Shown here: in pieces, positions 41,733 to 57,816 of the stretch | Layout: each line of letters starts with the position of its first letter | Numbering within the stretch: the first letter of the stretch is position 1 | Assembly: GCA_021825365.1 (NCBI GenBank) | Contig: JAKAHR010000016.1 | Span: forward strand, 1-64,000 | Source of the DNA: Nitrospirota bacterium | GTDB taxonomy: Bacteria > Nitrospirota > Thermodesulfovibrionia > Thermodesulfovibrionales > UBA6898 | Direction: 5' to 3' | DNA: 64,000 nt | Notes under the pieces: model-generated | The model's database searches: none | The model's input: only the letters and a program-made list of their open reading frames with translations | Told to the model about the DNA's origin: nothing | Made by a program: the position numbers and the translations under genes

Positions 41733-43730
41733 TTACCCCGCGAGGCAGATGCGGTTGCGGCCTTCCCGCTTTGCGCGATACAACGCTGCATCGGCCGCCT
41801 CGTGAAGGTCGGCGGCGGTGCGGTACTCCGGGAATGTCGCGATCCCGCAGCTGAAGGACACGTAGAACTCCTGCCCCCGGCACTGGTGGCATATCCTGAA
41901 GAAATCCTCCCGGATCGTATCCAGTATCGCCTTGGCCGCGGCGCTGTCGGCCCCTTCAAGCAGGACGGAGAACTCCTCCCCGCCGTACCGGCCGACGACG
42001 TCCGTCTTGCGCAGCCGCTGCAGCAGGAGCCGGGAGAGGCCCTTCAGGACCTGGTCTCCGGTGGCATGGCCGTAGGTGTCATTGACCGCCTTGAAATGGT
42101 CGATGTCGATCAGCGCATAGGCGAGGCCGGAATTCCCGCGTTCGGCCCGGGCGACCCCCATCTGCAGCTGTTCCTTCGCCTTCGTATGATTGAGGAGACC
42201 GGTGAGGCTGTCGCGCACCATGAAGGAGTGCAGCAGCCGCGAACGCTCCACCCGGGACCTGACCGAAGAGACGAGATGGCTGTCCTTGATCGGCTTGGTC
42301 AGGAAGTCATCGCCCCCGAGGCTCATGGCGGCAAGCTGTTTCTCAACGTCCGTCTCTGCGGAAAGGAAGACGATGGGGATGCTGACAAAGGACGACATCT
42401 GCCGGATCACCTTCGAAAGCTCGATGCCGCTGCTGTCGGGCATATACATGTCCATCAGGATCAGGTCAGGCCTGAAGGCGAAGAGCATCTCCATCATCTG
42501 CAGGGGGTCGGAGGTGATCTCGGTCCTCATGCCGGCGGACTTCAGGATCAGGTCATACCGGGAGGCGAGCGTGATGTCGTCATCGACGATGAGGATGCGG
42601 TAGGCGTCCTCGTCGCTGCGAGCGGTCAATGCGTCCAGTTTGTCTATCAGGCTGCTGGTATCAACGGACCGGGTGAAGTAGGCCTCGCCTCCGGCCCTCA
42701 CCGCGCTCAGGCGCGCGGCGAAATCCTCGGTCTCGGAAAGGAAGATGACCGGCGCCTTGCCCGTCCGTCCGGCCATGCCGGAGATGATCTCCGCAATCGG
42801 CAGCCCGTCCGCCCGGAGCGACATGTCCGCAATGATGGCCGCGGGCGCTCTCCGCGCAACCTCTTCTCTCAGTTCGTCGGCCCGCAGGCTGCAGACCCGA
42901 TAGCCGAAATACCCCAGTTGCTGGCTCAGACCCTGAAGGGCGGGGCTGTCGCCGACGACAAGGTAGATCAGCCGGTCGTCGTCCGCATTGCGGACAGGGG
43001 CCTCGCAGGCAATCTTCTCTCCCTCTGCACCGTCATCCGGCCGGGGCGCGACTGCAGCGGCGGCCAGGCCCCTGACGAGTTCTTCGATATGCCGCCGGTC
43101 TTCACCGGCCTGCAGGGAAGGGCTTCGCTTGAGGGCGAGTTCGAGAAGATGGGCCGCTGCGCTGACCTCGGGGAACCCGAACGTCGCGCCCGAGCCGGCC
43201 AGCTTATGGACCAGGAGAAGCATCTCCTTCGCCTGCGCGCCTTCTCCCTCCTCCGGCATCCTTTGCCAGAGCGCCTCTATCTCCCTGACCTTTGCGGGGA
43301 GTTCCGCTGCGTACACCTCTGTCAGGGCCTGCAGATTTGCCGCCGCCTCCTCGCGCGCCTTTTCCCGGTGCGCCAGGACCTCCCCGATCTTCCCGGGAAA
43401 GGTCATCGCATCGAAAGGCTTGGCGATGACCCCCGAGGCGCCGAGCCTGGTATAGGAATCGATCTCATGCTGTTCCGTGCTCGCCGTGAGAAAGACGACC
43501 GGGACGCGGGACATCCCCGGAAGCCTGCGGATCTCGGCCAGGGTCTGGATGCCGTCCATATCAGGCATGTTGACGTCGAGGATGACGATGTCGGGCCTGA
43601 ACATGCTGACCGCGCGGAGCGCCTCGGCGCCGGAACCGCAGATATGCGTCTCGTGGCCGCCGACCCGTTCAAGCGTTATCCGGGCCAGCTTCTGGATGGA
43701 GGTATCGTCGTCTGCCAGCAGGACCCGCAT
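41733..43730 (-). CDS. Diguanylate cyclase with REC-Hpt-REC-REC-GGDEF layout
   Basis: This 665-residue protein has a first receiver (VLLADDDTSIQKL, LDVNMPDMDG, IAKPFDA), an Hpt domain with the phosphoacceptor HKLAGSGATFGF, a degenerate second receiver (GDSP in place of the acidic pair; Arg in place of the conserved Lys in YFTRSVD), a complete third receiver (LIVDDDITLAS, LMDMYMPDSSG, LTKPIKD) and a GGDEF domain. The active motif GGEEF is intact and the inhibitory site RKTD lies five residues before it, so it should make c-di-GMP under product control. Its ATG shares one base with the stop of the protease gene. It is the last gene of the hydrogenase-signalling operon. Confidence 0.92.
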   Translation of the reverse strand: MRVLLADDDTSIQKLARITLERVGGHETHICGSGAEALRAVSMFRPDIVILDVNMPDMDGIQTLAEIRRLPGMSRVPVVFLTASTEQHEIDSYTRLGASGVIAKPFDAMTFPGKIGEVLAHREKAREEAAANLQALTEVYAAELPAKVREIEALWQRMPEEGEGAQAKEMLLLVHKLAGSGATFGFPEVSAAAHLLELALKRSPSLQAGEDRRHIEELVRGLAAAAVAPRPDDGAEGEKIACEAPVRNADDDRLIYLVVGDSPALQGLSQQLGYFGYRVCSLRADELREEVARRAPAAIIADMSLRADGLPIAEIISGMAGRTGKAPVIFLSETEDFAARLSAVRAGGEAYFTRSVDTSSLIDKLDALTARSDEDAYRILIVDDDITLASRYDLILKSAGMRTEITSDPLQMMEMLFAFRPDLILMDMYMPDSSGIELSKVIRQMSSFVSIPIVFLSAETDVEKQLAAMSLGGDDFLTKPIKDSHLVSSVRSRVERSRLLHSFMVRDSLTGLLNHTKAKEQLQMGVARAERGNSGLAYALIDIDHFKAVNDTYGHATGDQVLKGLSRLLLQRLRKTDVVGRYGGEEFSVLLEGADSAAAKAILDTIREDFFRICHQCRGQEFYVSFSCGIATFPEYRTAADLHEAADAALYRAKREGRNRICLAG

Positions 43731-44227
43731 CAGCAGACCGCCTGTCCGTCGGCAGCTTCCGGACGGACCATCTCTTCTATTATCCGGACCGCCTTTTCGA
43801 CCGCAGGGACGACTCCGGGAGTGAGGCACTCACCGTACCCCGAGCAATCGGCTGCAAGGACGCCGATAATCGTTGTCTCCGGCCTCTTCCACAGGGCCGC
43901 CGTCATGTCGAGTATGTCTCCCACCCTGCCGAGGTGTCCGGACAGGAAATGGTCGCCCTGCGTCTCCTCTTCCCTGATGATCCGTATGTCTCCGGGAGAC
44001 CCGTCGCCGACAAGGGCGTCGACGATGATCAGCCTGTCGACGCCTTCCAGATAGGTGACGAGGTCAAGGCCTGCGGTGCCCCCGTCGAGGAGCCGCACGG
44101 ATGAGGGGAGGCCGGCCCCCTCCAGCCGCCGTATGACGTGGATCCCCACGCCGTCGTCTCTCCTGAACAGATTGCCTACGCCGAGAACAAGGGTCACGCC
44201 CTGTCCCTCCTCACCGATTTTTCTCAT
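43730..44227 (-). CDS. NiFe hydrogenase maturation protease
   Basis: This 165-residue protein belongs to the HycI/HyaD/FrcD protease family, which trims the C-terminus of the large subunit after nickel is inserted. Seen: LVLGVGNLFRRDDGVGIHV with the first nickel-binding acidic residue, LLDGGTAGLD, 'RLIIVDALVGDGSPG' with the second Asp and SGHLGRVGD with the His. It lies two genes after the large subunit, whose 25-residue tail behind DPCxxCxxH is a fitting substrate. Confidence 0.92.
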   Translation of the reverse strand: MRKIGEEGQGVTLVLGVGNLFRRDDGVGIHVIRRLEGAGLPSSVRLLDGGTAGLDLVTYLEGVDRLIIVDALVGDGSPGDIRIIREEETQGDHFLSGHLGRVGDILDMTAALWKRPETTIIGVLAADCSGYGECLTPGVVPAVEKAVRIIEEMVRPEAADGQAVC

Positions 44228-44275: not shown

Positions 44276-46654
44276 CTACAGGCCCATCATCTTCTTGGCC
44301 TTTTCGATCTTTTCCTCCGACCCGGCCTCCGACATGATGATGAACAATATGTTCTCGAGGCTCTTTTCGAAGCGCAGGGTCCTCACCATATCGTGGCGGT
44401 CCGAAAGGGCGGAATCGACGATGACCATGTCCGGCCGTGTGCTTACCGCCTTTTCGATGCCTTCTTCGCCGCTGTATGCCTCGGTTATGTGGTAGCCCTT
44501 TGTCTCGAGGACGTCCTTCAGCGTCCTGACGGTGGATATGTCTTCATCGATGACGAGGACCTTCTTCCGCGACGTGCCCCTCGAAAGCAGGTTCTCGATG
44601 CTCCTGAGCAGCTCGACCGTATCGACCGGCTTGGTAAGGTAGTTGTCAATGCCCAGCCGGTAGCCGCGGTCCTTGTCCTCGACGATCGAGAGGATGATGA
44701 TCGGTATATCGCCGGTGAGGGGGTTGTTTTTGAGCACGGCTGCGACATCGAACCCGCTGATCCCCGGCATCATGACATCGAGGGTGATGATATCCGGCCT
44801 CTTCTTCCTGATCTCCGAGATCGCCTGCATACCGTCCTTCGCCTCTGTCACCTCATAGCCGTTTTCTTCGAGCACCTGCCGCAGGAAGTTGCGGATATGG
44901 TCCTCGTCGTCCACGACGAGGACGCATTTCTTGCCCCCTGCCGCGGCCTCGGCCGCGGCAGGGATACTGCTTTCAAAATGACGCAGGAGTCTTTCGACGG
45001 ATGCCGGCTCGGTCACACTCTCAGGGATCGCAACCGGCAGGGTGAAGGAGAAGGTGCTGCCCCCGCCCCTGCGGCTCTCCGCCCATATCCTGCCGCCGTG
45101 GTGTTCGACGATCTCCTTGCAGATCGGCAGGCCGAGGCCCGTGCCTTTCGGCTTGTCCGTCAGGGTATCGCCGACCTGCTTGAATTTCTCGAAGACCCTC
45201 GGCAGGTCTTCTTCGTCTATGCCCATGCCCGAGTCCGCCACGCTCACCCGGATCACGTCCGCCTCTTTCCGGGCGCTGCAGGTGATCGAGCCGGCGTCCG
45301 TAAACTTGACGGCATTGGACAACAGGTTGATCACCACCTGCATGAGCCGGTCGCCGTCCCCCGTCACGGGCGCCAGGTCCGCGCCGACGTCCGTGAAGAG
45401 GGGGAGCCCCTTCTGCTGAAACAGGGATGAGGTCGCCGCGGTCGCCCGCCGGATGATCTCGTCGATGAACACCGGCTCCTTCTTCCAGTCGACCTTTCCG
45501 GCCTCCATCTTCGCGATGTCGAGGACGTCGTTGATGAGGGAGGTGAGCCTTTCTCCCTCCGACACGATGATGCTGAGGTTGTCGCCTATCTGCCTGACCG
45601 CCCTGAGCGCCTTCTTGTCGTCCGTGCGGACGAGGGGGGCGATGACGTCTTCGAACTTCTTCCTGATCAGTTTCGCAAACCCCAGCACCGACGTCAGCGG
45701 CGTCCGCAGCTCATGTGAGACCGTTGAGATGAAATCCGTCTTCATCCGGTCGACTTCCCATTCCTTGGTGATGTCCCGCAGCACGGTGATGATGCCGAGG
45801 AACTCGCTTTCATTGCTGATGGAGTAGGCGTTTGCCCGGAAGACCCGGCCGGAAAGCCGGAAGTCCCTCTGGATGATGTCCGCACGGCCGCCCCTGATGA
45901 CCGCATCGATCATGCCGTTGATGTCCATGTCCCTGAAGACGTCCGCTATATACTTTCCGGCGACGCTCCCCGGCGCCAGCCCGAACATGCGCTCGACCGC
46001 CGGGTTTGCCAGCATGATCGACTTGTCGGCGGACGTGACGACGAGGCCGTCCGTCATGTTCGTGATGACCGCATTGAGTTTGTTTCTTTCGTTGTCGAGC
46101 GCCCGCGTCGTCTTGCGTATCCTCTCGTACGACAGGGCATTGTTCACCGAGAGGGCGATGTTCGGGGTGAGGGCGCTGATGAAGGAGAGTATCTCGAAGC
46201 TCGTCGCCGTATCGTCCGCAACGAGGAGAACGCTGTTGACGGTCCCCTCGTAGATGCAGGGAAAGGCGGCGAGCGTCAGGACGGGCCTGCCGGAATCGAG
46301 GCCGAAGCCGGAGACATCGCCTCCTTCCTTCATGACCATATCCCTTGCGGCGGCCGCCTCCGCGACGATGCCGCCTTCGGCAGGGGAAACACCGGCAGAC
46401 AGCCCCTCCGCCCCCAGGACCGGGAAGGAGCCGTTGTCCCGCAGATAGACCGCTCCGGCCTTGATCCCCGTTGTCTGCCTCAGCCTGCCGATGATCGACG
46501 AGGCCAGTTTCGGCAGGTCCAGGGCAGACGACAGCATCTGGGCGATATCGGCAAAATGGCCCTGCATCCTGACGGCGTCCTGCAGCGAGCGACAGCGGGC
46601 CTCGAGTTCACGGTTGCGGTCCTGGAGGGTCTGGCTGTCTTTATCGTTTCCCAT
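44276..46654 (-). CDS. Soluble hybrid histidine kinase: GAF-PAS-HisKA-HATPase-REC-REC
   Basis: This 792-residue protein has a coiled-coil start, a GAF-like domain (about 30-175), a PAS domain (NAVITNMTDGLVVTSADK through TVLRDITKE), the box STVSHELRTPLTSVLGF, ATPase motifs NLLSNAVKFTD, DSGMGI and GTGLGLPI, one complete receiver (VLVVDDEDHIRNFL, LDVMMPGISG, LTKPVDT) and a second, shorter one (VLVIDEDISTVRTL, VDSALSD) that stops before its last strand. No membrane segment is seen. It starts directly after the stop of the 82-residue gene. The position inside a hydrogenase operon suggests that its GAF or PAS domain reads the redox or hydrogen status. Confidence 0.92.
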   Translation of the reverse strand: MGNDKDSQTLQDRNRELEARCRSLQDAVRMQGHFADIAQMLSSALDLPKLASSIIGRLRQTTGIKAGAVYLRDNGSFPVLGAEGLSAGVSPAEGGIVAEAAAARDMVMKEGGDVSGFGLDSGRPVLTLAAFPCIYEGTVNSVLLVADDTATSFEILSFISALTPNIALSVNNALSYERIRKTTRALDNERNKLNAVITNMTDGLVVTSADKSIMLANPAVERMFGLAPGSVAGKYIADVFRDMDINGMIDAVIRGGRADIIQRDFRLSGRVFRANAYSISNESEFLGIITVLRDITKEWEVDRMKTDFISTVSHELRTPLTSVLGFAKLIRKKFEDVIAPLVRTDDKKALRAVRQIGDNLSIIVSEGERLTSLINDVLDIAKMEAGKVDWKKEPVFIDEIIRRATAATSSLFQQKGLPLFTDVGADLAPVTGDGDRLMQVVINLLSNAVKFTDAGSITCSARKEADVIRVSVADSGMGIDEEDLPRVFEKFKQVGDTLTDKPKGTGLGLPICKEIVEHHGGRIWAESRRGGGSTFSFTLPVAIPESVTEPASVERLLRHFESSIPAAAEAAAGGKKCVLVVDDEDHIRNFLRQVLEENGYEVTEAKDGMQAISEIRKKRPDIITLDVMMPGISGFDVAAVLKNNPLTGDIPIIILSIVEDKDRGYRLGIDNYLTKPVDTVELLRSIENLLSRGTSRKKVLVIDEDISTVRTLKDVLETKGYHITEAYSGEEGIEKAVSTRPDMVIVDSALSDRHDMVRTLRFEKSLENILFIIMSEAGSEEKIEKAKKMMGL

Positions 46655-46903
46655 CTATGACCCCAGATACTTGAGCCACTTCGAGACCCTTTCCTGCACT
46701 TCGAGGCTGCCCCACATGCCGAGCAGTTTATCGTCCCTGCCGAGACATTGGACGAAGGTCCTGCATTTCGTCTCCTCGTCGGAGTCCCGGATCTCCGCAG
46801 CAACCTTCATCTTCGCCTTGTTCAGGATAAGGTTGGCCATCGACGCCCCGAAGAGCGACTCTATGTCAGGCTTTATCCTGTCTCTCAGGAGGTCAAGCTC
46901 CAT
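46655..46903 (-). CDS. Small unknown protein between hydrogenase and hybrid kinase
   Basis: This 82-residue protein is not recognised. It is mainly helical and charged, with two cysteines (KCRTFVQCLG) eight or so residues apart and a WGSLEVQERVSKWLKYLG tail. There is no signal or membrane helix. GGAG precedes the ATG, and the kinase ATG follows its stop codon directly, so the two are surely translated together. A link between the hydrogenase and the kinase is a reasonable guess, based only on place. Confidence 0.65.
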   Translation of the reverse strand: MELDLLRDRIKPDIESLFGASMANLILNKAKMKVAAEIRDSDEETKCRTFVQCLGRDDKLLGMWGSLEVQERVSKWLKYLGS

Positions 46904-46948: not shown

Positions 46949-48370
46949 TCAATATTTCCTGAGTACATCGATGCATTCACCCGCGGCTGAATACAGGCGC
47001 ACCTCAAGAGGCATCTTGCCCACCGCGTGGGTCGAGCACGACAGGCAGGGATCATAGCACCGTATCGCCATCTCGACCCGGTTCAGCATGCCCTCCCTCA
47101 CCCTGCCTCCCTTGATGTACTTCCTGGCGACGTCCTTCACCGACAGGTCGATCGCCCTGTTGTTATGCGCCGTGGCGACGATAAAATTCGCCTTTGTCAC
47201 GCGGCCGTCGTCATCCGCCTGGTAGTGGTGGATAAGGGTCCCCCGCGGGGCCTCGACAACGCCGACCCCCTCACCGGCCTTCCTTTCCGCCTTAATCCGC
47301 ACGTCCTTTGAAACGATCTCATCGTCGGACAGGAGTTCCCGCGCCCTCTCGGAGGCGTACAGGATTTCGATCATCCGCGCGACATGGTAGTAGAGGTTTT
47401 CATTCACCGTATCGCCCATCGCCCTGAAGACCCTGAACCTCTCCGCGGCAGCCGGTGTGCCGACGGAGGAGGAGACATTCAGCCGCGCCAGCGGTCCGAC
47501 CCGGTATATCCCGTTCGGCCACCCCTCTTTCTTGTAGTAGGGGAATTTGAGCCATGTGTCATCCTCGACATGCTCGGCGATATAGTCGAGATAGTCCCTG
47601 CCCGCGAACTCGGCGACCTTCCGGTTTTCGGCATTCTTCAGGACGATCGGACCGTCATAGAATTCGAGGCTGCCGCTGTTCGTGAGGCCCATGTGCTTGG
47701 TGCGGAAATTCCCGAGGCTCGGCAGCTTGTCAGCGTACGATTCCAGCATGCCGTACGCGGCGTCCACCGCCGATTCGGACAGGGACACCGCCTCTCCGGC
47801 GTCCCTGAGGAGGTGGAACCTGTCCTCATGCGCAAGCGCCATGCTCATGCCGCCGGGAATGGCGGTGACCGGGTGTATCGGCCGTCCGCCGACCCTGTCG
47901 ATGATCGTCTGGCCTATCTTCCGCAGGCGCAATGCCCTCTTCGCCAGGTCGGGGTTTTTTTCGTAGAGACCGATGAGGCTCCTCTTCTCGGGGTCTGAAT
48001 CCGGACCGAGGATGAAGTCCGGCGCCGAGAGGAAGAAGAAATGCAGGGCATGGGACTGGATGATCTGCCCCATATGCATCAGCTCCCGGAGCTTCTTCGC
48101 AGCGGGCGGGATGACGACGCCGAGCAGGTCGTCGCATGCCTTGGCAGCGGCAAGGTGGTGGCTCACCGGGCAGATCCCGCAGATCCGGGTGGTGATGACC
48201 GGCATGTCCCAGAGCATCCTGCCCTCGCAGAACTTCTCGAAGCCGCGGAACTCCGTCACATGGAAACGTGCGTCAGACACCCGGCCGTCGTCGTCGAGAT
48301 GGATGGTCACCTTGCCGTGGCCTTCGACCCTGGTGACAGGTTCGATCTCTATCTTCTTCTTCTTCATCAT
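46949..48370 (-). CDS. NiFe hydrogenase large subunit (group 3-like, MvhA/HoxH-type)
   Basis: This 473-residue catalytic subunit holds the NiFe centre. The first metal motif is RICGICPVSHH (Cys64 and Cys67), the second DPCLSCSTH (Cys442 and Cys445). It starts with IEIEPVTRVEGHGKV, the classic large-subunit N-terminus. The tail after His448 is 25 residues and would be removed by the protease encoded downstream, so this is an enzyme that matures normally, unlike regulatory HupV-type proteins. Sequence style is that of cytoplasmic group 3 enzymes. The ATG at 48370 overlaps the small-subunit stop (ATGA) and follows GGAGG. Confidence 0.93.
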   Translation of the reverse strand: MMKKKKIEIEPVTRVEGHGKVTIHLDDDGRVSDARFHVTEFRGFEKFCEGRMLWDMPVITTRICGICPVSHHLAAAKACDDLLGVVIPPAAKKLRELMHMGQIIQSHALHFFFLSAPDFILGPDSDPEKRSLIGLYEKNPDLAKRALRLRKIGQTIIDRVGGRPIHPVTAIPGGMSMALAHEDRFHLLRDAGEAVSLSESAVDAAYGMLESYADKLPSLGNFRTKHMGLTNSGSLEFYDGPIVLKNAENRKVAEFAGRDYLDYIAEHVEDDTWLKFPYYKKEGWPNGIYRVGPLARLNVSSSVGTPAAAERFRVFRAMGDTVNENLYYHVARMIEILYASERARELLSDDEIVSKDVRIKAERKAGEGVGVVEAPRGTLIHHYQADDDGRVTKANFIVATAHNNRAIDLSVKDVARKYIKGGRVREGMLNRVEMAIRCYDPCLSCSTHAVGKMPLEVRLYSAAGECIDVLRKY

Positions 48371-49260
48371 TTTTCCTCCCGGTACGGATATATCGATACC
48401 GGCAGCGAATATCGGTACCCGACGCCCACCACGTCTTCCATGAACATCATCGCACCGGCGGGCAGGATCGAGGCGAGGGCATTGATCATCTTGGCGCCCT
48501 GCTCCAGCGCCCCGGTCGTCGGTCCCATGCACCCCCTGCACGGAACGTTGCCCTTCACGCAGCGGGCCTCGCATCCCTCCCGGGTGGCGGGGCCCATGCA
48601 GATCAGTCCCTGTTCGAGAAAGCACCGGTCCGGATCGATGACATCGAGCTCCATGATCGCGTGGACCGCATTCGTCACGAATTCCCTCTTCGGCACGTAC
48701 ATCTCCTGGTGTTTCCTGTTGCATTCATGGCAGAGGTTCTTCTGCGGTATGACCGGCTTCTTCCCGCCGATGATGTCCTTCAGGACCGAACGGATCATCT
48801 TCGGGGTAGGGGGGCAGCCGGGCAGTTCGTAATCAACGGCTATCTCCTGGTGGACCGCCCTGACATGCGGAAGCATCGCCGGGATGTCCGGAGACGACGG
48901 GACCTTGCCGCGCACCGTGCTCTCGGTCTCGACATACGCCCTCTGCAGCACGTCGTCCAGGCTGAAGAGGTTCCTCAGGCCGTTGATCCCGCCGAAGGCG
49001 GCGCATGTTCCAAAGGCGAGGATCTTTCCCGCCTTCTTCCTGAACTCCCTGGCCACCGCGACATTCGACGTGTTGCAGAGCGCGCCGTCGAGTATGCCGA
49101 GGTCGACCTTCGGCACGGACTTCACGTCGTTTATCGGCGAGCGGACGATGTCGATCGAATCGAGCAGGGAGAGGAGGTCCTCATCCAGGTCGAGGATCGC
49201 CATATGGCACCCGAAGCATCCCTGGAGGTGTCCGGTCGCAACGCGCAGCTTCTTCATCAT
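48367..49260 (-). CDS. NiFe hydrogenase small subunit (MvhG-like)
   Basis: This 297-residue iron-sulfur subunit carries electrons away from the NiFe centre. The proximal cluster ligands are in QGCFGCHMA (Cys15, Cys18), 'FGTCAAFGG' and LPGCPPTP. Further cysteines follow in NLCHECNRKHQ, 'RCFLEQGLICMGPATREGCEARC' segments and VPCRGCMGPT, enough for two more clusters. There is no twin-arginine signal, so the enzyme is cytoplasmic. The ATG at 49260 overlaps the stop of the HdrA-like gene and follows GGGGAGGGG. Confidence 0.93.
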   Translation of the reverse strand: MMKKLRVATGHLQGCFGCHMAILDLDEDLLSLLDSIDIVRSPINDVKSVPKVDLGILDGALCNTSNVAVAREFRKKAGKILAFGTCAAFGGINGLRNLFSLDDVLQRAYVETESTVRGKVPSSPDIPAMLPHVRAVHQEIAVDYELPGCPPTPKMIRSVLKDIIGGKKPVIPQKNLCHECNRKHQEMYVPKREFVTNAVHAIMELDVIDPDRCFLEQGLICMGPATREGCEARCVKGNVPCRGCMGPTTGALEQGAKMINALASILPAGAMMFMEDVVGVGYRYSLPVSIYPYREEK

Positions 49261-50858
49261 CCCCTCCCCATCTTCCTGAGATGTTCTATGAAATCCACCG
49301 CGCCCCTGACGCAGGAATTTCCGTCGCAGTTGCTCACCCCGAATATGCGGAGGCGCTCGGGCGATATCCCCCTGCTGTCGAGGACCGCGCGGAACAGGTT
49401 GGCGCGCCTGTCGAGGTCCGTATTGCCGACGATGTTGAGGCAGCGGTCGTCCCCGCATTTGCAGATGACGACCCCGCTGAAGCCTTCCCTGAAGGCCTCG
49501 ATAATGAACTGGGTGTCGATCCTGCCGGCGCACCGGACCGAAAGAGGCATGACACTCGTCGGATACTCCATCCCCTCCCTGCCGGCGAAATCCAGCGACT
49601 GGTACCCGCACCCCTCGCAGAGGAGATACAACAGCCTGATGCCGTTGGGAGGATTATAGGAAGCCAGTATCCTGATCGCCGAAAGGAGGTATTCCGTGCT
49701 GGCGCTCACCTGGTCCCGCGCACCCGTCGGGCAGGCCGAGACGCAGTTGCCGCAGCCGACGCACCTCTTGATGTTCGTTGTCGAAAGCTTGCTCGAGGGG
49801 TCGAGCTCGGCGGCGTGGAAAAGGCAGGTCTTGATGCAGGTGCCGCAGCCGCCGCAGATCTCCTGGTTCACCTCGGAGACGAAGAGCTCGTGGGTGATCG
49901 AGTGGCGCTTCAGGAGCGTGTCCAAAGACAGCGCGGCCGAGTCGGCGCAGGCGATGACGGAGGCCGGAGGCGTATCGTGCGGGATGAGAAAGATGCCCGG
50001 GTTCACCGTCTCGGTCACCGCCGTGTCGGAGAAGATCGTACGGAAATGGCCCTCGTTGCTCCTCTCGAGCCGCAGGAAAGGGTACAGCTCGCCGGTGTAT
50101 GCCAGGTCGTCTCCGATCGCCACGATAATTCCGCCTGCCCGCAGCCTGACGCCCCCCTTCAGGTGTATCCTGAAATTCCCCGCATAGCCGTACAGCTCCT
50201 CAAGGGGCGCGACATGGAAGACGGCATGCGGATGGTTCTTCACATAGGCGAGGGTCGGCATCGCATCGGCGGAGGCCGGAGTCGCTTTCTCCTGCCGCGG
50301 CCTGTCGACGAAGGCTACGTGAAACCCTCTTTCAAGGAGCCTCTGGGCCGCATAGATGCCGCCGGAGGTCGTGCCGATGACCGCAACCGTCTTCTTCGGC
50401 GCCACCTCGATCATGCCGACATCATGGGAGAGCCTCGCCTTCTCGATCCCGACAGCTATCAGCACGGACGCCTTCCTGGTCGCCTCGAGGGGCGTGGCCC
50501 GGTGGGGCAGGGCCGTCTGTTCCTTGAGGTTGACGATCGCTATCCTGTTTGCATTCATGCCCTCTTCCTGCAGGACGCGCAGCAGCAGATCCCCGTTTCG
50601 GGCCGAACGGTAAAACAGGGGGGATTCCCCGGCGAGCACAACAGAGTCGAGCCTCTCCTCCCTCACGACGCTCCGGACCGCGTTGATGCTTTCCGAGCTA
50701 TGCAGGTTGTCGTAGATCCGGACGGGCAGGCTCTTCCTGAAGCGCGCCGACAGGGACTTCAGGTCAAGCACGCTGCTTATCGCGCCGTCCGCTCCGGAGA
50801 GGAAGAGGCCGGTCGTCGCCCCGGCGTGGCCGCGCGCTTTCTTCGCCCGGTCACTCAA
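49257..50858 (-). CDS. HdrA-like flavoprotein fused to an MvhD-type electron-transfer domain
   Basis: This 533-residue protein joins three parts. The first (about 1-320) is HdrA-like with a nucleotide-binding loop (VAVIGTTSGGIYAAQRL). The second has two 4Fe-4S motifs, CGGCGTCIKTC and CVGCGNCVSACP. The third (about 405-533) is an MvhD/FrhD domain with CEGCGYQSL, RCAGRIDTQF, CKCGDDRC and NCDGNSC, a set of paired cysteines for a 2Fe-2S cluster. It would link the hydrogenase to a flavin site. HdrB and HdrC are absent from the window, so the electron acceptor is not the usual heterodisulfide reductase. Its start overlaps the receiver gene by eight bases. Confidence 0.88.
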   Translation of the reverse strand: MSDRAKKARGHAGATTGLFLSGADGAISSVLDLKSLSARFRKSLPVRIYDNLHSSESINAVRSVVREERLDSVVLAGESPLFYRSARNGDLLLRVLQEEGMNANRIAIVNLKEQTALPHRATPLEATRKASVLIAVGIEKARLSHDVGMIEVAPKKTVAVIGTTSGGIYAAQRLLERGFHVAFVDRPRQEKATPASADAMPTLAYVKNHPHAVFHVAPLEELYGYAGNFRIHLKGGVRLRAGGIIVAIGDDLAYTGELYPFLRLERSNEGHFRTIFSDTAVTETVNPGIFLIPHDTPPASVIACADSAALSLDTLLKRHSITHELFVSEVNQEICGGCGTCIKTCLFHAAELDPSSKLSTTNIKRCVGCGNCVSACPTGARDQVSASTEYLLSAIRILASYNPPNGIRLLYLLCEGCGYQSLDFAGREGMEYPTSVMPLSVRCAGRIDTQFIIEAFREGFSGVVICKCGDDRCLNIVGNTDLDRRANLFRAVLDSRGISPERLRIFGVSNCDGNSCVRGAVDFIEHLRKMGRG

Positions 50859-51228
50859 GGCCCAGCACCTCGACCGTCTTGGCGTGAATCTCGTCAGGGT
50901 TGAAGGGTTTGGTCATGTAGATATCGGCACCGACCTCCAGCCCTTTCTTCTTGTCGAACTCCTGGCCCTTGGCCGTCAGCATGATGATGTATACGTCCCG
51001 CATGTTCAGTTCGTTCTTGACCGTCCTGCAGACGTCGAAGCCGTTTACCTTGGGCATCATGACATCGAGGAACACCAGATCAGGCTTGTCCGCTTTTATG
51101 ATCTCGAGGGCCTTTTCGCCGTCTTCGGCGATCAGGAGATCGACCCCCGAATCCTCCAGGTCTTCGAGCGTCTGCTCGAGCAGCATGCGTATATGCGGTT
51201 CGTCGTCTACGATCAATACCTTTGGCAT
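50851..51228 (-). CDS. Single-domain response regulator
   Basis: This 125-residue protein is a lone receiver: VLIVDDEPHIRMLLEQTL, LDVMMPKVNGFDV, MLTAKGQEFD and YMTKPFNPDE. All receiver residues (acidic pair, phospho-Asp, Thr, Lys) are present. It overlaps the start of the HdrA-like gene by eight bases, which ties it to hydrogenase expression, and lies 44 bases after the ATPase-receiver gene. Confidence 0.9.
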   Translation of the reverse strand: MPKVLIVDDEPHIRMLLEQTLEDLEDSGVDLLIAEDGEKALEIIKADKPDLVFLDVMMPKVNGFDVCRTVKNELNMRDVYIIMLTAKGQEFDKKKGLEVGADIYMTKPFNPDEIHAKTVEVLGLE

Positions 51229-51272: not shown

Positions 51273-53528
51273 TCAGTTTCCCATCCTCTTCATGAGTCTC
51301 TTCACCCGGGCCTGCAGCTCGGTATAGTCGAACGGTTTTGTTATGTAATCGTCGGTGCCGAACGTAAACCCCTTCAGCTTGTCCTCGACCGAATCACGCG
51401 AGGAAAGTATCACCACGGGGATGAACATCGTGCTGACCTTGCTTCTGAGTTCCCTGATGAGCTCGTACCCGTCCATCACCGGCATGTTGATGTCCGTGAT
51501 GATGAGGCCGGGGTTGATGTTCCGGGCCGCCTCAAGAGCCTCCCTGCCGTTTTGCGCGGTGTGCACCTCGACGTCGAGGGGCCGGAGGGCGAGTTCCACC
51601 ATCTTCAGGATGCCGAATTCATCATCAACGATCAGGACCCTGGCCTTCTCCTCCGCGCCGGGCGCCTTCTCCTTTTCGCGCGGGCTTCCGCAGAAGGGGC
51701 AGAAGGCCCATCCCTCCTCGAGGCCGGAAGAGCACTTCCTGCAGGAGGTCTCCGGCATGGTCCCGCAATAGGGGCAGTCGGCTTCCGCATGCATCCTTCC
51801 GCAATTGGGGCAGGAGGCGCCGGGGGTGTCATCCACGGTCACCGCCCGGAGCACCTCATCGATGGTGGTCTTTCCGTTGTAGACATGCTCGAGGGCCGCC
51901 TCATACAGGGTGCGCATCCCCTCCTTGCGGGAGGCATCCCGCAGTTCGCCGGCAGAGGCGCGGCCTGATATGAGTTTCCTGAGGGAAGGGGTGATCTCCA
52001 TGATCTCCACGACCGCCAGTCTTCCCCGGTATCCGGTATTGTTGCACTTCGCGCAGCCCTTGCCCCTCACAAACGACGCCTTCCTGTCGATGCCGGGCAG
52101 GGCGGCGAAGGCGTCCTCGTCCGGGGCGTATTTTACCGCGCAATGGGGGCAGATCACCCGGAGCAGCCTCTGGGCGACGACGCAGTGCAGGGACGATGAG
52201 ATGAGGTACGGCTCGACCCCGATATCGTACAGCCTCGTTATCGTGGCAGCCGTGCCGTTTGTGTGGAGCGTGCTGAGGACTAGATGGCCGGTATTGGACG
52301 CCCTGAAGGCGACGTCGGCTGTCTCGATGTCCCGTATCTCGCCCACCATGACAACGTCCGGGTCCTGCCGGAGTATCGAACGGAGGGCGTTGGCAAAGGT
52401 GAGGCCGGCCTTTTCATTCACATGCACCTGGGTGATGCCCTCCAGTTCGTATTCGACCGGGTCCTCCACCGTCACGATATTGGTGCCCTCGGAGCGCAGT
52501 TCAGTCAGCATGCCGTGCAGGGTGGTGGTCTTGCCGCTGCCGGTGGGGCCTGTCATGAGGATCATGCCCTGCGGCCGGGACATCGCCGTCCTGAGCCTTT
52601 CCAGGTCGGCGCCGGAGAGGCCCGAGAGGGGCAGTTCGATCGCCTTTTCGCCCGGCTTCAGGAGCCTCATCACGACCTTTTCCCCCAGGTGCGTGGGAAG
52701 TGTCGAGACCCTGACGTCGAGCTGGACATTCCCGACCTTCAGCTTCATCCCGCCGTCCTGCGGGGTCTTCCGGTTGCTGATGTCGAGCTTCGACATGATC
52801 TTTACCCGTGAGGCGATCGCCGAGTGCATCCACTTGGGTATCTGGGTGTGCGTCGCCAGGACGCCGTCGATCCTGAACCGCACGGTAACCGCCTTCTGGC
52901 CGGGCTCTATGTGGATGTCGCTCGCGCGGCAGTCCAGCGCCTCCCTGATGAAGAGGTTTACCAGCTTTATCGCGGGCGCAAGCATCTGCTCGTCAAGCTC
53001 CTCCCGCTTGCCGGTCATGAACGCCTCCTCGATCCGCTTGTCGCCGTGGTCCTGCACGAACTCGACCTCGGCCACGGCTCCGGAGGATACGCTGTCCAGC
53101 ACCCGGGCGAGGTCCGTGCTCATGTCGAAGCACCGCTGCATGGCCGCCATCAGCTGGCTCTTCGATGTCACGTGCGGAACCGGGGTCAGGCCCGTAATGA
53201 AGGAGAACTCCTGCAGGGTGCCGATGTCGAGCGGGTCGAGCATCGCGACCTTCACCTTCCTGCCCTCTTTTTCGAACGGCATGCACATGTATTTGAGCGC
53301 GTGGTCTTTCGTGAATTTCCCGAGCGCATCGGGCATGATGTCGGAAAGGTCGGCCCTCCTGATCTTCAGCCCGTCCGCAAAGATGTCGACTATCCTGTCT
53401 TCGTCGACGTCCAGGGTGTTATATATCTCGACAACGAAACTGCGGCCTTTTGCCCGGGTCCTGATGCCGTTCAGGACGTCCGCGCTCACAATGCCTTCCT
53501 TTATCAGAAGATCGCTTACCGTGTCCAT
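51273..53528 (-). CDS. GspE/PilB-type ATPase with zinc ribbons and a C-terminal receiver
   Basis: This 751-residue protein begins with an MshEN-like domain (about 1-140), followed by the ATPase of type IV pilus and type II secretion systems: RASDIHIEP, Walker A GPTGSGKTTT (about 330), 'VVMVGEIRDIETAD' (Walker B), TLHTNG and the tetracysteine pair CPHC and CAKC. Beyond this, where PilB ends, are paired cysteines (CPNCGRMH, CPYCGT, CRKCSS, CPFCGSP) making two zinc ribbons, and then a full receiver (VLIVDDEFGILKM, ITDINMPVMDG, ITKPFD). No pilus genes are nearby. Phosphorylation of the receiver could switch the motor. Confidence 0.92.
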   Translation of the reverse strand: MDTVSDLLIKEGIVSADVLNGIRTRAKGRSFVVEIYNTLDVDEDRIVDIFADGLKIRRADLSDIMPDALGKFTKDHALKYMCMPFEKEGRKVKVAMLDPLDIGTLQEFSFITGLTPVPHVTSKSQLMAAMQRCFDMSTDLARVLDSVSSGAVAEVEFVQDHGDKRIEEAFMTGKREELDEQMLAPAIKLVNLFIREALDCRASDIHIEPGQKAVTVRFRIDGVLATHTQIPKWMHSAIASRVKIMSKLDISNRKTPQDGGMKLKVGNVQLDVRVSTLPTHLGEKVVMRLLKPGEKAIELPLSGLSGADLERLRTAMSRPQGMILMTGPTGSGKTTTLHGMLTELRSEGTNIVTVEDPVEYELEGITQVHVNEKAGLTFANALRSILRQDPDVVMVGEIRDIETADVAFRASNTGHLVLSTLHTNGTAATITRLYDIGVEPYLISSSLHCVVAQRLLRVICPHCAVKYAPDEDAFAALPGIDRKASFVRGKGCAKCNNTGYRGRLAVVEIMEITPSLRKLISGRASAGELRDASRKEGMRTLYEAALEHVYNGKTTIDEVLRAVTVDDTPGASCPNCGRMHAEADCPYCGTMPETSCRKCSSGLEEGWAFCPFCGSPREKEKAPGAEEKARVLIVDDEFGILKMVELALRPLDVEVHTAQNGREALEAARNINPGLIITDINMPVMDGYELIRELRSKVSTMFIPVVILSSRDSVEDKLKGFTFGTDDYITKPFDYTELQARVKRLMKRMGN

Positions 53529-53570: not shown

Positions 53571-55082
53571 TCAGCGCAACGGCAGCGTTATGACGAAGTT
53601 TGCCCCGTTGAACCCTTCGACTCCCGAGTAGTTGCCGTTTACCGCCCTGATCGAGCCGCCGTGCTCTTCGACGATCTTCCTCGTGACGGCGAGGCCGAGG
53701 CCGGTGCCTGATTTCTTGCCCTTCGTGACGAACGGCTCGAACAATGAATCTATGATATCATACGGGATACCTCCGCCCGTATCCGCGAAGACCATCTCCG
53801 AATCAGGGCCGGAGGGCCGAAGCAATATCAGGAAGCGCCCTCCGTTGTGGAGTTCCTCCCGCGCATTGCCGGCGATATTGAACACCACCCGCTTGAACCG
53901 TTCGACGTCGAGCAGCAGGTCGCCCGAATAGTCCACCCTCCTGACGACCGCGATGTCCCTGGCTGCCATGTCTTTTTCTATGTACGGGATGAGAGAGCCG
54001 ATGAACTCTTCCGCACCGATCCTCTCCAGCGTGAGTCGGGTCTTGAAACCCCGGGTAAAGGAGAGGAGGTCTTCCACCATGCCGACCAGCCTGTCCACCT
54101 CCTTGATGATCATGCCGCTGTATTCCTTGCGCTCGTCCTTCGTAAAATCCAGGTCTCCCAGCAGGCCGGCAAAGCCCTTGATGGTGGTCATCGGGTTTTT
54201 TATGTCGTGGATGATGCCGGCCGCCATCTGGCCCACGGCCGTAAATTTCTCGTCCCTGATCTTCTCCTCGATCAGGCGCGCGTTTTCGATCACCTCGGCG
54301 ATGACGATGCACATGGAGTTGAGGAGGGCCTCGTCTTCGCTCGTGAAGACGGAATCGGCCTTGTTCCGCAGCGTCAGGATCCCGATCGTCGAGTCCTTTA
54401 CCTTGAGGGGCAGACAGAGAAGCGAATAGATCAGCACGCTGCCCGTCCTGACGAATCCCGGATGCTCGGCAGGTTCATTGGCGATGATGGGCAGGCCGGT
54501 TTCGAGCACCCTGCCGGCGATGCCCTCCATCGTCTTCAGCTCGAGGGGCTCGTTGACCGCACGACCTGATATCGCCTTGAGCACGAACGTCCCGGTCCTG
54601 GAGTCCGCCACCATGACCGAGCAGGATTCGACGCGGATGATCTCATGCACCCGCGCCGTGGCGGTACAGAGGATGTCGGACACATCCACCGAGGAGCTCA
54701 TGATCTTGTTGATCTCGGCGAGAAAACTCATCTCGCGGTATTTCTGGAGCGTATGCTCGATCATCGTCTTCTTTTCGACGATCTCCCGGAGGTAGAGTCC
54801 GAAAAGGGCCGCGGCGGCGGCGAGGGAGCCTGACGCCCCCGCAAGGCGGCCGACGGTCCTGCCGTCAACCACGACGTCGGCGCCGGCGCAGCCGTCTCCG
54901 GCCGCAAATCCCGGCGATGCATGCAGTGCCCTGCCGTCACTGCCGGAAAAGGAGAGCGGACCTGCCATGACAGACAGCATGTCGCAGATCTGAGAGACGT
55001 CTTTCTTCCTCAGCACCATGTTCCTCGTTTCCTCCGCAGGGCATTCTCCGGGCAGGGCCGGGTTTTCGGCCGGCGGCAGCAT
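53571..55082 (-). CDS. Soluble GAF-domain histidine kinase
   Basis: This 503-residue kinase has an N-terminal region of about 110 residues without clear homology, a GAF domain (about 130-285; 'ARVHEIIRVESCSVMVAD', 'GIAGRVLETGLPIIANEP', 'LCLPLKVKDSTIGILTL'), the box GIIHDIKNPMTTIKGF, and ATPase motifs FNIAGNAREEL, DTGGGIP and GTGLGLAVTRKI. It has no receiver of its own. It is the first gene of the operon; the next encodes the ATPase with a receiver, a likely partner. ATG 55082 has GGAGG eight bases ahead; ATG 55019 with GAGG is an alternative. Confidence 0.9.
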   Translation of the reverse strand: MLPPAENPALPGECPAEETRNMVLRKKDVSQICDMLSVMAGPLSFSGSDGRALHASPGFAAGDGCAGADVVVDGRTVGRLAGASGSLAAAAALFGLYLREIVEKKTMIEHTLQKYREMSFLAEINKIMSSSVDVSDILCTATARVHEIIRVESCSVMVADSRTGTFVLKAISGRAVNEPLELKTMEGIAGRVLETGLPIIANEPAEHPGFVRTGSVLIYSLLCLPLKVKDSTIGILTLRNKADSVFTSEDEALLNSMCIVIAEVIENARLIEEKIRDEKFTAVGQMAAGIIHDIKNPMTTIKGFAGLLGDLDFTKDERKEYSGMIIKEVDRLVGMVEDLLSFTRGFKTRLTLERIGAEEFIGSLIPYIEKDMAARDIAVVRRVDYSGDLLLDVERFKRVVFNIAGNAREELHNGGRFLILLRPSGPDSEMVFADTGGGIPYDIIDSLFEPFVTKGKKSGTGLGLAVTRKIVEEHGGSIRAVNGNYSGVEGFNGANFVITLPLR

Positions 55083-55139
55083 CCCGGGAGCCTCCGTAAT
55101 TGTACCTTAATTGCTCAATTCCTGCATGAAATAATCCTT

Positions 55140-55182
55140 GTCGCTAAAGGCTTTTCTACTATGTATAATAAGGCATGCCGGA
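55140..55182 (+). promoter_or_regulatory. Promoter-like element A, twin of the one before rel
   Basis: GTCGCTAAAG (55140-55149), 14 bases, TATAAT (55164-55169) and AAGGCATGCCGGAG match the element at 57900 almost base for base. The ATG five bases after TATAAT opens an 8-codon frame (55175-55201), which could be a leader peptide of the binding-protein gene. Confidence 0.55.
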
Positions 55183-55254
55183 GCGGGCGCCCCGTGCGTA
55201 ACCTGCTTCTCCCGAAGGGTGCACCGGACCGCTGAGAAGTCTCCGGAGAATTCC

Positions 55255-56298
55255 GTGAAAAATAACGATATTCCTGTAATGTGTATTCCTTCGAAGCAGG
55301 TGCTGATCCGGCTGGCGCTCGCCGTCTCTGCCCTGACCCTCTGCGTTGCTGTTCCGGCCTGCTTCGGGACTGACCGCAACTCCGCCGGTCCGCCTGAAAA
55401 GGTCACCATCGCCTATGCCACCCCACCGTACACGCTTCTCGCCGACATCGCCCAGGCCAGGGGATATTTCCGGCAGGAAGGGCTGGAGGTGAAGCCGCTC
55501 TTTCATTCGACCGGCAAGGCCGCTCTCGACGACGTGCTGCAGGGGAAGGCGGAATTTGCGACCGTCGCCGATACGCCCGTCATGTTTGCGGTCATGAGGG
55601 GGGCACCGATCGCCATCATCGCGACTATACAGACATCCAATAAGACCAATGCCATCTTCGCAAGAAAGGACAGGGGCATCCTCACCCCCGGTGATCTGAA
55701 GAAGAAGAGGATAGGGGTGACGTACGGCGGCATCGGCGAATTCTTCACGGATACCTTCCTGGCTGCCCATGGAATTGCAGGAGGAGACGCACGGCTGATC
55801 GACATGAAGCCCGAGGAAATGTCGGAGGCCCTGGCGAACGGTGATGTTGACGCCATCTCGGCATGGCCCCCTTATCTGAACCAGGCGCAGAAGAAACTGG
55901 CGGGCAGGGGCATCATGTTTTATGACGAGGATATCTATACACAGACCTTCAACGTCGCCGCATCCCGGGAATTCATCCGCAATAACCCCGGCGCGGTCAG
56001 GAAGGTCCTCCGCGGCCTGATCAGGGCGGAGGAATTCTTCGGGCAGAATCCGGCGGAGGCCCTGCGGTCTGTCGCCGGGTTTCGGAAGATGGATGAGGCG
56101 CTGGTGGGAGAGATATCAGCAGGAAATGCCTTCAGCGTGACGCTCGACCAGCTGCTCCTGCTGGCGCTGGAGGACGAATCGCGCTGGGCGATACGGCACG
56201 GACTCACCCGCCGGACCGAGGTGCCCAACTACCTCGACCTTCTCTATCTAGACGGGCTGGCATCGATCAGACCCAAAGCGGTAAACATACTGAGGTAG
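55255..56298 (+). CDS. NMT1/TauA-like solute-binding lipoprotein
   Basis: The protein of about 347 residues has a lipoprotein signal ending in VPAC and the two-lobe fold of NitT/TauT substrate-binding proteins: VTIAYATPPYTLLADIAQ, GYFRQEGLEVKP, 'KAEFATVADTPVMFAVM', KRIGVTYGG and 'GDVDAISAWPPYLNQ'. GTG at 55255 is chosen because GGAGA precedes it; ATG 55279 is an alternative. No permease or ATPase gene follows. Instead, nine bases later, a membrane histidine kinase starts, so this protein is probably a sensor input and not a transporter part. The ligand is unknown. Confidence 0.85.
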   Translation: MKNNDIPVMCIPSKQVLIRLALAVSALTLCVAVPACFGTDRNSAGPPEKVTIAYATPPYTLLADIAQARGYFRQEGLEVKPLFHSTGKAALDDVLQGKAEFATVADTPVMFAVMRGAPIAIIATIQTSNKTNAIFARKDRGILTPGDLKKKRIGVTYGGIGEFFTDTFLAAHGIAGGDARLIDMKPEEMSEALANGDVDAISAWPPYLNQAQKKLAGRGIMFYDEDIYTQTFNVAASREFIRNNPGAVRKVLRGLIRAEEFFGQNPAEALRSVAGFRKMDEALVGEISAGNAFSVTLDQLLLLALEDESRWAIRHGLTRRTEVPNYLDLLYLDGLASIRPKAVNILR

Positions 56299-56307
56299 GC
56301 AGGATCC

Positions 56308-57816
56308 ATGCAGGTCAAGACAAGGCTGAGAATAAGCACCGTGATAACGGCCATGACGGTCTTCGTCATTGTCGGCATGCTGTCTCTGGCCCTTTATCGC
56401 ATCATCGATGCTGTCGAGGGTTCTGCAATTACGGACGACATAATAGCCGGGGCGCTGGAACGCCTGGCGCTGCGAAACGATTATGTCCATAACGAAAATG
56501 AGAGGGCGAGGGTCCAGTGGGATGCCAAACATGAACGGATCGGGGGACTCCTGCATGCGGCGTCGAAACGCTTCCGGGAACCCAGGTACAAAAAGACCAT
56601 TGATGAAATGATCAGGAATCATGAGTCCATTGGAAAACTCTTTGCGGGCATCGTCGAAAACCGGGAAAAGATGAGGCGGCGGGCAATCCCCACCGGCCTT
56701 GCCCGGGAGACCGAAGACAGGCTGATCAGCCAGTTGAACATGAGAGTCTACGCGGTGATCGTGCTCGGGAACAGATTGCTGGAGTCCAGCAGGGAGTCCC
56801 TCTTTGCTGCCCTCAGACTGGCGGGCTGGGGCATCTTCCTTGCGCTCGTGGTCCTGCTCGCGGTGTCGATAACCAACCTCCGGATAATGGGCCGGGCTAT
56901 TACGGACCGCGTCCGCAGGCTGCATGATGGCGCTCTGGAGATCGGAAGGGGCAATCTCGATCACCGGATCGATGTCAGGGGTGATGATGAATTTGCCGGG
57001 CTCTCCGATGCCTTTAACTCAATGACCGCGAAGCTGAAGACATCGTACCGTAATCTTGAAACCGAGGTTGAGGAGCGCAAGCGGGCGGAAGCGGACATCC
57101 TGAAGCTAAGCGAAGACATGGCGGCGCGCAACGTGGAACTCGAATACGCCAACAGGGAGCTTGAATCCTTTGTATACTCCGTTTCTCACGACCTCAGGGC
57201 CCCGCTGCGCTCGATTATGGGGTTCACGAAGATCGTCATGGAGGATTATGCCGGCACACTCGACGCCCAGGGAAGGGACTACCTCGACCGCATCGCACGG
57301 GGCTCTGCCAGGATGAGTCATCTTATCGACGCCCTCCTGGACCTGTCGAGGATCTCAAGACAGGAGGTGCAAAGGACGGATGTCGATCTGAGCGCGATGG
57401 CGGGCTCGATCATCTCCGAACTGCGGGAGGCGCATCCGGACAGGCAGGTTGACGTGCGGATCGGGGAGGGTGTATCCGCCTTCGCCGACAGGCGGCTGAT
57501 CGAGCTCGTCCTCTCGAACCTTCTCGACAACGCCTGGAAGTTCACCGCCAGGAGCGGGAGCGCCCGGATCGAGTTTGGGGCCGATGAGAAGGACGGCCCG
57601 ACCGTCTATTACGTGAGGGACAACGGCGTAGGGTTCGATCAGGAGTATGCGGAGAAGATGTTCCTGCCGTTCCACCGGCTCCACAGTGACAGTGAATACG
57701 AGGGCACCGGGATTGGCCTGTCGATCGTCGAGCGGATCGTCCGCCGCCACGGGGGAAGGATCTGGGCGGAGGGAGCTGCCGGCGGAGGCGCGGTGGTATA
57801 TTTCACGGTGTCGTGA
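56308..57816 (+). CDS. Membrane sensor histidine kinase with HAMP domain
   Basis: This 502-residue kinase has an N-terminal helix (about 8-30), a periplasmic helical region of about 130 residues, a second helix (about 170-193), a HAMP domain (DGALEIGRGNLDHRIDV), a coiled coil and the core: YSVSHDLRAPLRSIMGF, NLLDNAWKFT, DNGVGFD and GTGIGLSIVERI. The HDLRAPLR form with 'FLPFHRLHSDSEYEGTG' is the bacteriophytochrome-type kinase subgroup. The gene follows the binding protein by nine bases. No receiver gene is next to it; rel comes after. Confidence 0.92.
   Translation: MQVKTRLRISTVITAMTVFVIVGMLSLALYRIIDAVEGSAITDDIIAGALERLALRNDYVHNENERARVQWDAKHERIGGLLHAASKRFREPRYKKTIDEMIRNHESIGKLFAGIVENREKMRRRAIPTGLARETEDRLISQLNMRVYAVIVLGNRLLESSRESLFAALRLAGWGIFLALVVLLAVSITNLRIMGRAITDRVRRLHDGALEIGRGNLDHRIDVRGDDEFAGLSDAFNSMTAKLKTSYRNLETEVEERKRAEADILKLSEDMAARNVELEYANRELESFVYSVSHDLRAPLRSIMGFTKIVMEDYAGTLDAQGRDYLDRIARGSARMSHLIDALLDLSRISRQEVQRTDVDLSAMAGSIISELREAHPDRQVDVRIGEGVSAFADRRLIELVLSNLLDNAWKFTARSGSARIEFGADEKDGPTVYYVRDNGVGFDQEYAEKMFLPFHRLHSDSEYEGTGIGLSIVERIVRRHGGRIWAEGAAGGGAVVYFTVS

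Follow-up and report, generated by a model that had tools for sequence, protein, structure and literature searches.

How two-component signals act on the pilus motor has not been settled even for model systems, where receiver and motor are different proteins. The localization of the extension ATPase PilB in Pseudomonas is controlled by PilG, a stand-alone receiver, and receiver phosphorylation in this Pil-Chp system (PilG/PilH acting on PilB), which has a CheA-like kinase, governs the pilus extension ATPase (PMC12632253). The MshEN domains that bind c-di-GMP carry a tandem RLGxx motif, imperfect forms of which can still bind, and MshEN domains are also found together with receiver (REC) domains (Wang et al, 2016; PMC5013675). 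A hydrogenase, a histidine kinase and a receiver are combined in the HoxBC-HoxJ-HoxA and HupUV-HupT-HupR systems, of which the known output is a transcription factor. The H2-sensing HoxC has no C-terminal extension (PMC10073562). Our literature search found no description of a PilB-type ATPase that has both zinc ribbons and a fused receiver. A protein of this kind, P0001, in which, unlike in Pil-Chp, one chain holds receiver and motor together, is encoded in the window, that is, the whole stretch of 64,000 nucleotides analyzed here, on contig C35 of its genome. We consider it reasonably likely to be a response regulator that has a PilB-type (type IV pilus extension) motor as its output domain and, therefore, one in which phosphorylation would control pilus extension directly.

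P0001 (51273..53528, minus strand) has 751 amino acids with an ATG start and is composed, all on the minus strand, of an MshEN (T2SSE_N) domain at residues 59-137 (53118..53354; Pfam, 1.5e-15), a T2SSE ATPase core at residues 182-561 (51846..52985; Pfam, 2.9e-130, with identical coordinates in the genome scan), a double zinc ribbon with four CxxC pairs at residues about 573-614 (51690..51812; motif scan and Pfam DZR) and a receiver (Response_reg) at residues 631-743 (51300..51638; Pfam, 9.9e-27). The score against the T2SSE profile was 434.7 bits (curated cut-off, 24.9), and the motifs expected of the T2SSE superfamily were all present, with Walker A (GPTGSGKT, residues 327-334, 52527..52550, minus strand), Walker B (VVMVGEIR at 392), the His box and the tetracysteine, together with STLHT at 419, found by motif scan. 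Residues K333, E397, H415 and H422 of the ATPase were invariant across nine of nine orthologs, as were D635, D636, D679, S709 and K731 of the receiver, which thus has the complete response-regulator set (DD, phospho-Asp, Ser/Thr, Lys), with D679 (51492-51494, minus strand) as the phospho-acceptor. The motif scan placed CxxC pairs at 460, 492, 573, 585, 596 and 610; the DZR match was under the Pfam cut-off (7e-4), yet all four pairs of the ribbon were present, and in one ortholog (G089) one zinc-ribbon Cys is replaced by Ser. The first-pass annotation, which had described a complete ATPase core followed by four CxxC pairs and a full receiver with all phosphorylation residues, was therefore accurate on the architecture, with the small correction that the first tetracysteine, inside the ATPase, is also found in standard PilB/GspE. 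Because the tetracysteine at 460/492 has a counterpart at 500/535 in the plain PilB encoded on contig C29 of the same genome, the extra ribbons of P0001 are the four pairs from 573 on.

The closest PDB sequence and fold of P0001 were of the PilB type (Geobacter PilB, 5tsg/5zfr; Thermus PilF, 5oiu), with which it shares the MshEN/T2SSE order, Walker A/B, His box and tetracysteine, and from which it differs in the extra double zinc ribbon and C-terminal receiver, the absence of pil genes around it and an MshEN domain without the RLGxx motif. It also scored under the NCBI equivalog cut-offs for both PilB (TIGR02538; 538.5 versus 675.65 bits) and GspE (TIGR02533; 540.3 versus 630.25 bits). An AlphaFold2 monomer model built from 19 sequences (pLDDT 78, pTM 0.53) was good in the ATPase and poor in the ribbon and linker, with unreliable placement of the receiver, and Foldseek with this model gave PilF/PilB as the top match (8e-52). 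The solved sequences nearest to the receiver were mostly OmpR/PhoB-type regulators. Because many regulators of this type dimerize when phosphorylated, it could be that receiver pairing tunes ring assembly in P0001.

Full-length orthologs with 57-64% identity were found in 9 of 177 genomes of the order, representing nine genera and two families (five genomes in the family of the window and four in the other), and their existence rules out a chance or frame artefact. Their profile scores were more than 1000 bits, and the proteins ranking below them reached about 625. No further ortholog was found among 396 genomes sampled across the phylum or by a search of named genomes. The receiver was the most conserved domain, with a mean pairwise identity among the nine orthologs of 75%, compared with 69% for the ATPase, 52% for MshEN and 39% for the ribbon.

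A receiver-free PilB with a double zinc ribbon (PilB-DZR; about 640 amino acids) is common in Desulfobacterota and in Nitrospirota, where it occurs in classes other than that of the window. It has the same MshEN-ATPase-double-zinc-ribbon frame, being about 38-44% identical to P0001, but typically has no recognized two-component gene alongside. Among 297 genomes of Desulfobacterota, the phylum of a Geobacter MAG, three proteins had a C-terminal receiver, one with the zinc ribbon (G502) and two without it (G581 and G741). In a third form, REC-PilB-DZR (about 810 amino acids), a receiver is likewise fused to the PilB-DZR ATPase in a kinase/receiver operon, but at the opposite end, the N terminus, and the other genes of this operon include those for a Ras/Arf-like GTPase and REC-HD-GYP proteins, with no hydrogenase among them. 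The ATPase tree separated the nine orthologs (100/100) and the N-terminal-receiver family (100/100) into two clades and G581/G741 into a third, whereas G502, the sole Desulfobacterota protein with both ribbon and receiver, was placed uncertainly on a long branch. Because these clades are separate, the sequence relationships indicate that receivers have been joined to PilB-type ATPases at least three separate times, and the tree gave no support to a single common ancestry of all receiver fusions.

The REC-PilB-DZR operon was widespread and syntenic (L130:8969-18662, L173, L174, L175, L179, L181, L195, L196, L200 and L220), was also present in one Desulfobacterota genome, and has the order kinase, REC-PAS, one or two REC-HD-GYP, Ras/Arf-like GTPase, kinase, REC-PilB-DZR and single receiver. 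Its GTPase (about 222 amino acids) is strongly conserved, with 65-90% identity. PilB and PilT are positioned by a Ras-like GTPase in Myxococcus (PMC4316618), and the operon appears to be a pilus-polarity control system not described before. Separately, a PilB-DZR ATPase of G373 (L194:8468-10921), adjoining a DnaJ-like protein, has a GGDEF domain fused to its N terminus, as a diguanylate-cyclase analogue of the receiver fusion.

The genes from 55019 to 41733 of the window are co-directional on the minus strand, with gaps of at most 48 nt and several overlaps. P0001 is preceded by a GAF sensor histidine kinase without a predicted TM segment (53571..55019; Pfam GAF/HisKA/HATPase_c), of which the ORF runs to 55082 and the start at 55019 is backed by orthologs. 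It is followed by a CheY-like single receiver (50851..51228; Pfam, 2.9e-30), which is 65-89% identical between relatives where found, an HdrA-like/FlpD (MvhD) electron-transfer protein (49257..50858; Pfam FlpD and Fer4, with NCBIfam HdrA2/VhuD similarity under the cut-offs), the VhuG/MvhG-like small subunit (48367..49260; Pfam Oxidored_q6; NCBIfam VhuG, 2.1e-70, under the cut-off) and the VhuA/MvhA-like large subunit (46949..48376) of a [NiFe]-hydrogenase, the starts of which were inferred from the frame and from alignment, respectively. Further on are a conserved helical protein of 82 amino acids (46655..46903) without a Pfam match, a PAS hybrid histidine kinase with two receivers (44276..46654; Pfam), of which orthologs are present in the clusters of relatives, a hydrogenase maturation protease (HycI; 43730..44227; Pfam, 6.2e-18) and a REC-Hpt-REC-REC-GGDEF diguanylate cyclase (41733..43730; Pfam) with an intact GGEEF motif, the ORF of which extends to 43829. 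The 82-amino-acid protein gave a confident three-helix model (pLDDT 93) without a PDB structural match below E 0.001, and it has 59-80% identity in two relatives. Divergent from the operon, an NMT1-like solute-binding protein and then a HAMP histidine kinase are encoded at 55138-57816.

The GAF-kinase profile picked out precisely the 9 of 177 genomes that carry the ATPase, and the kinase gene adjoins that of the ATPase or is one gene away in all eight unbroken loci, the contig of G010 breaking there. From this gene order and co-occurrence, the GAF histidine kinase just upstream is likely the cognate kinase of the P0001 receiver, and because the ATPase is always found with the expected sensor kinase, the sensed signal may drive the pilus motor directly. 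The remainder of the cluster varied. The G004 cluster lacks the hydrogenase genes and keeps everything else, including the 82-amino-acid protein; no hydrogenase was recognized in the G089 cluster, and the G044 cluster has a different hydrogenase in place of the window's type. The G018 and G005 clusters keep the hydrogenase and add a receiver and a pseudo-PilB, which consists of MshEN and a degenerate T2SSE that has lost Walker A and B, with C-terminal CxxC pairs, and the G032 and G102 clusters have a pseudo-PilB, a PilT-family ATPase, a receiver and a Cache-domain kinase. The G032 cluster runs off the contig end, beyond which a hydrogenase is possible. A DnaJ-domain protein is encoded in the G032 and G044 clusters, and a short one in that of G005. 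By profile search, the pseudo-PilB was found in four genomes (L122:11017-12399, L123:2216-3592, L125:3125-4549 and L172:14480-15916), all carriers of the receiver-PilB and none outside them. The PilT-family ATPase, which keeps Walker A and B, was found in three of these four (G018 included; it was not called in G005) and is not in the window's own cluster; the one such protein tested, that of G018, exceeded the NCBI PilT/PilU cut-off.

That no pilin or secretin genes lie in the window, as had been noticed on first reading, extends to the whole of contig C35, in which a contig-wide profile scan gave no prepilin, T2SSF or secretin match; nor was a platform protein or pilin recognized in the cluster of any ortholog, and an ordinary pilus cluster is thus ruled out. 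Elsewhere, the genome has 17 prepilin (N_methyl), 8 platform (T2SSF) and 2 secretin matches. The plain, receiver-free PilB that the annotation had proposed to look for is present in a PilB-PilT-PilC-PilS-PilR locus on C29, and platform proteins with prepilin clusters are also on C17, C18, C38 and C42. T2SSF platform proteins were found in all nine carriers and prepilins in all seven carriers checked. The architecture is thus rare (9 of 177 genomes) and outside pilus clusters in all contexts read, rather than common and always within ordinary pilus clusters, and this position, the intact residues and the machinery on C29 are in accord with the earlier suggestion of a PilB-type ATPase, predicted to be phospho-switchable, serving pili encoded elsewhere. 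Beside the C29 locus, an MshEN-only protein of 323 amino acids with RLGxx-type motifs (L135:1372-2343) is a possible stand-alone c-di-GMP receptor, judged from its sequence.

The closest PDB entries for the large subunit of the window's hydrogenase were 7t2r and the methyl-viologen-reducing hydrogenase 5odc. It has both NiFe motifs (RICGICPVSH and DPCLSCSTH), the latter followed by a 25-residue C-terminal extension. With this extension and the HycI maturation protease nearby, it would fit a catalytic enzyme, and these same features, by which it differs from HoxC, speak against a pure H2 sensor. The G044 hydrogenase (L126:5220-7675) is group-2-like and closest to the hydrogenase-2 of 7uus/7utd, which we take to be mycobacterial Huc; it ends exactly at DPCxxCxxH with 0 residues after it, and its small subunit has no recognizable signal peptide at the start. 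Among the cluster hydrogenases compared, only this enzyme appears to fit the hallmarks of a sensory hydrogenase. Because it has no extension, the trait published for HoxC, H2 or the redox state of the H2-oxidizing enzyme is plausibly the input in hydrogenase-carrying relatives, and least certainly so for the window itself.

The proposed mechanism is as follows. The soluble GAF histidine kinase would phosphorylate D679, and the receiver behind the zinc ribbon would then alter the assembly or activity of the hexameric ATPase or its recruitment to the pole or basal body. The ATPase would be an alternative motor to the plain PilB, working with a platform and pilins whose genes lie elsewhere, and the input is modular. 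Because the same cassette holds the CheY-like receiver, the hybrid kinase and the diguanylate cyclase, a single phosphorelay probably serves both outputs, the pilus motor and c-di-GMP. Regulation via MshEN and c-di-GMP is unsupported, despite the GGDEF gene of the operon: no RLGxx motif (tandem, 24-residue) was found by motif scan in the MshEN of P0001 or its orthologs, whereas that of the C29 PilB has it. The motor-output reading is supported by the intact motor and receiver residues, the strong conservation of the receiver, the co-occurrence of the kinase, the operon-like order, the pseudo-PilB and PilT-family neighbours in relatives, the fold match to PilB/PilF and the pilus-type machinery in carriers, and also by the REC-PilB-DZR sister family, with its two-component genes and GTPase, and by PilG of Pseudomonas; against it are the lack of pilus genes nearby, the missing MshEN motif, the scores under the PilB/GspE cut-offs, the absence of the PilT-family neighbour from the window's own cluster and the presence of a hydrogenase in some carriers only.

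The earlier thought that P0001 may have become a signalling protein is one rival. A PilB-like ring that no longer drives pili might act as a signalling scaffold or ATP-dependent switch, passing the phosphorylation state to the diguanylate cyclase, hybrid kinase and hydrogenase. We consider this possible but unlikely: the composition of the cluster, with signalling and redox genes and no pilin, platform or secretin, agrees with it, as do the degenerate MshEN motif and the catalytically dead PilB paralogue adjoining in four carriers, but no ortholog departs from the Walker A, Walker B, His or tetracysteine motifs, and three carriers encode alongside it a PilT-family ATPase that looks active. The intact catalytic motifs and the PilT-family neighbours would thus favor a motor over a pure signalling protein. 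If P0001 is a motor, the machine that it serves could also be a different type IV filament system of the cell, T2SS-like or a minor pilus, and not the main pilus. The several platform proteins with prepilin clusters on C17, C18, C38 and C42 and the nearly equal scores against the GspE and PilB models would allow this, which we nevertheless judge improbable, as the C17 and C18 clusters already own an ATPase each and P0001 groups on the C29 PilB side of the tree, away from those of C17/C18 (98/88).

An ordinary hydrogenase operon with the kinases and the ATPase as chance neighbours would agree with the catalytic-type features of the VhuA/MvhA-like enzyme in the window, namely its C-terminal extension and maturation protease. 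The kinase-ATPase pair, however, persists in two families and is also present in carriers without a recognized cluster hydrogenase (G004 and G089), which makes such an arrangement highly improbable. The cassette resembles the Hox and Hup systems in combining a hydrogenase, a histidine kinase and a receiver, with G044 lacking the extension as HoxC does, and it differs in that the receiver sits on a motor ATPase. An H2-sensing two-component system, in which H2 directly gears type IV pilus extension and the diguanylate cyclase is a second output, is conceivable, but we put it forward only tentatively.

With P0001 regarded as a response regulator with a motor as its output, the receiver covalently attached to the motor offers a minimal system (one kinase, one protein and one ATPase assay) for the gearing of a PilB ring by phosphorylation. 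The fusion has arisen repeatedly and independently, at the C terminus with the ribbon, at the C terminus without it and at the N terminus, which suggests that phosphorylation acting directly on the extension motor is a solution reached more than once in lineages that have received little study. Through its hydrogenase, the receiver-PilB cassette has a testable sensory input, and H2 sensing, if true, would mean H2-directed attachment or motility.
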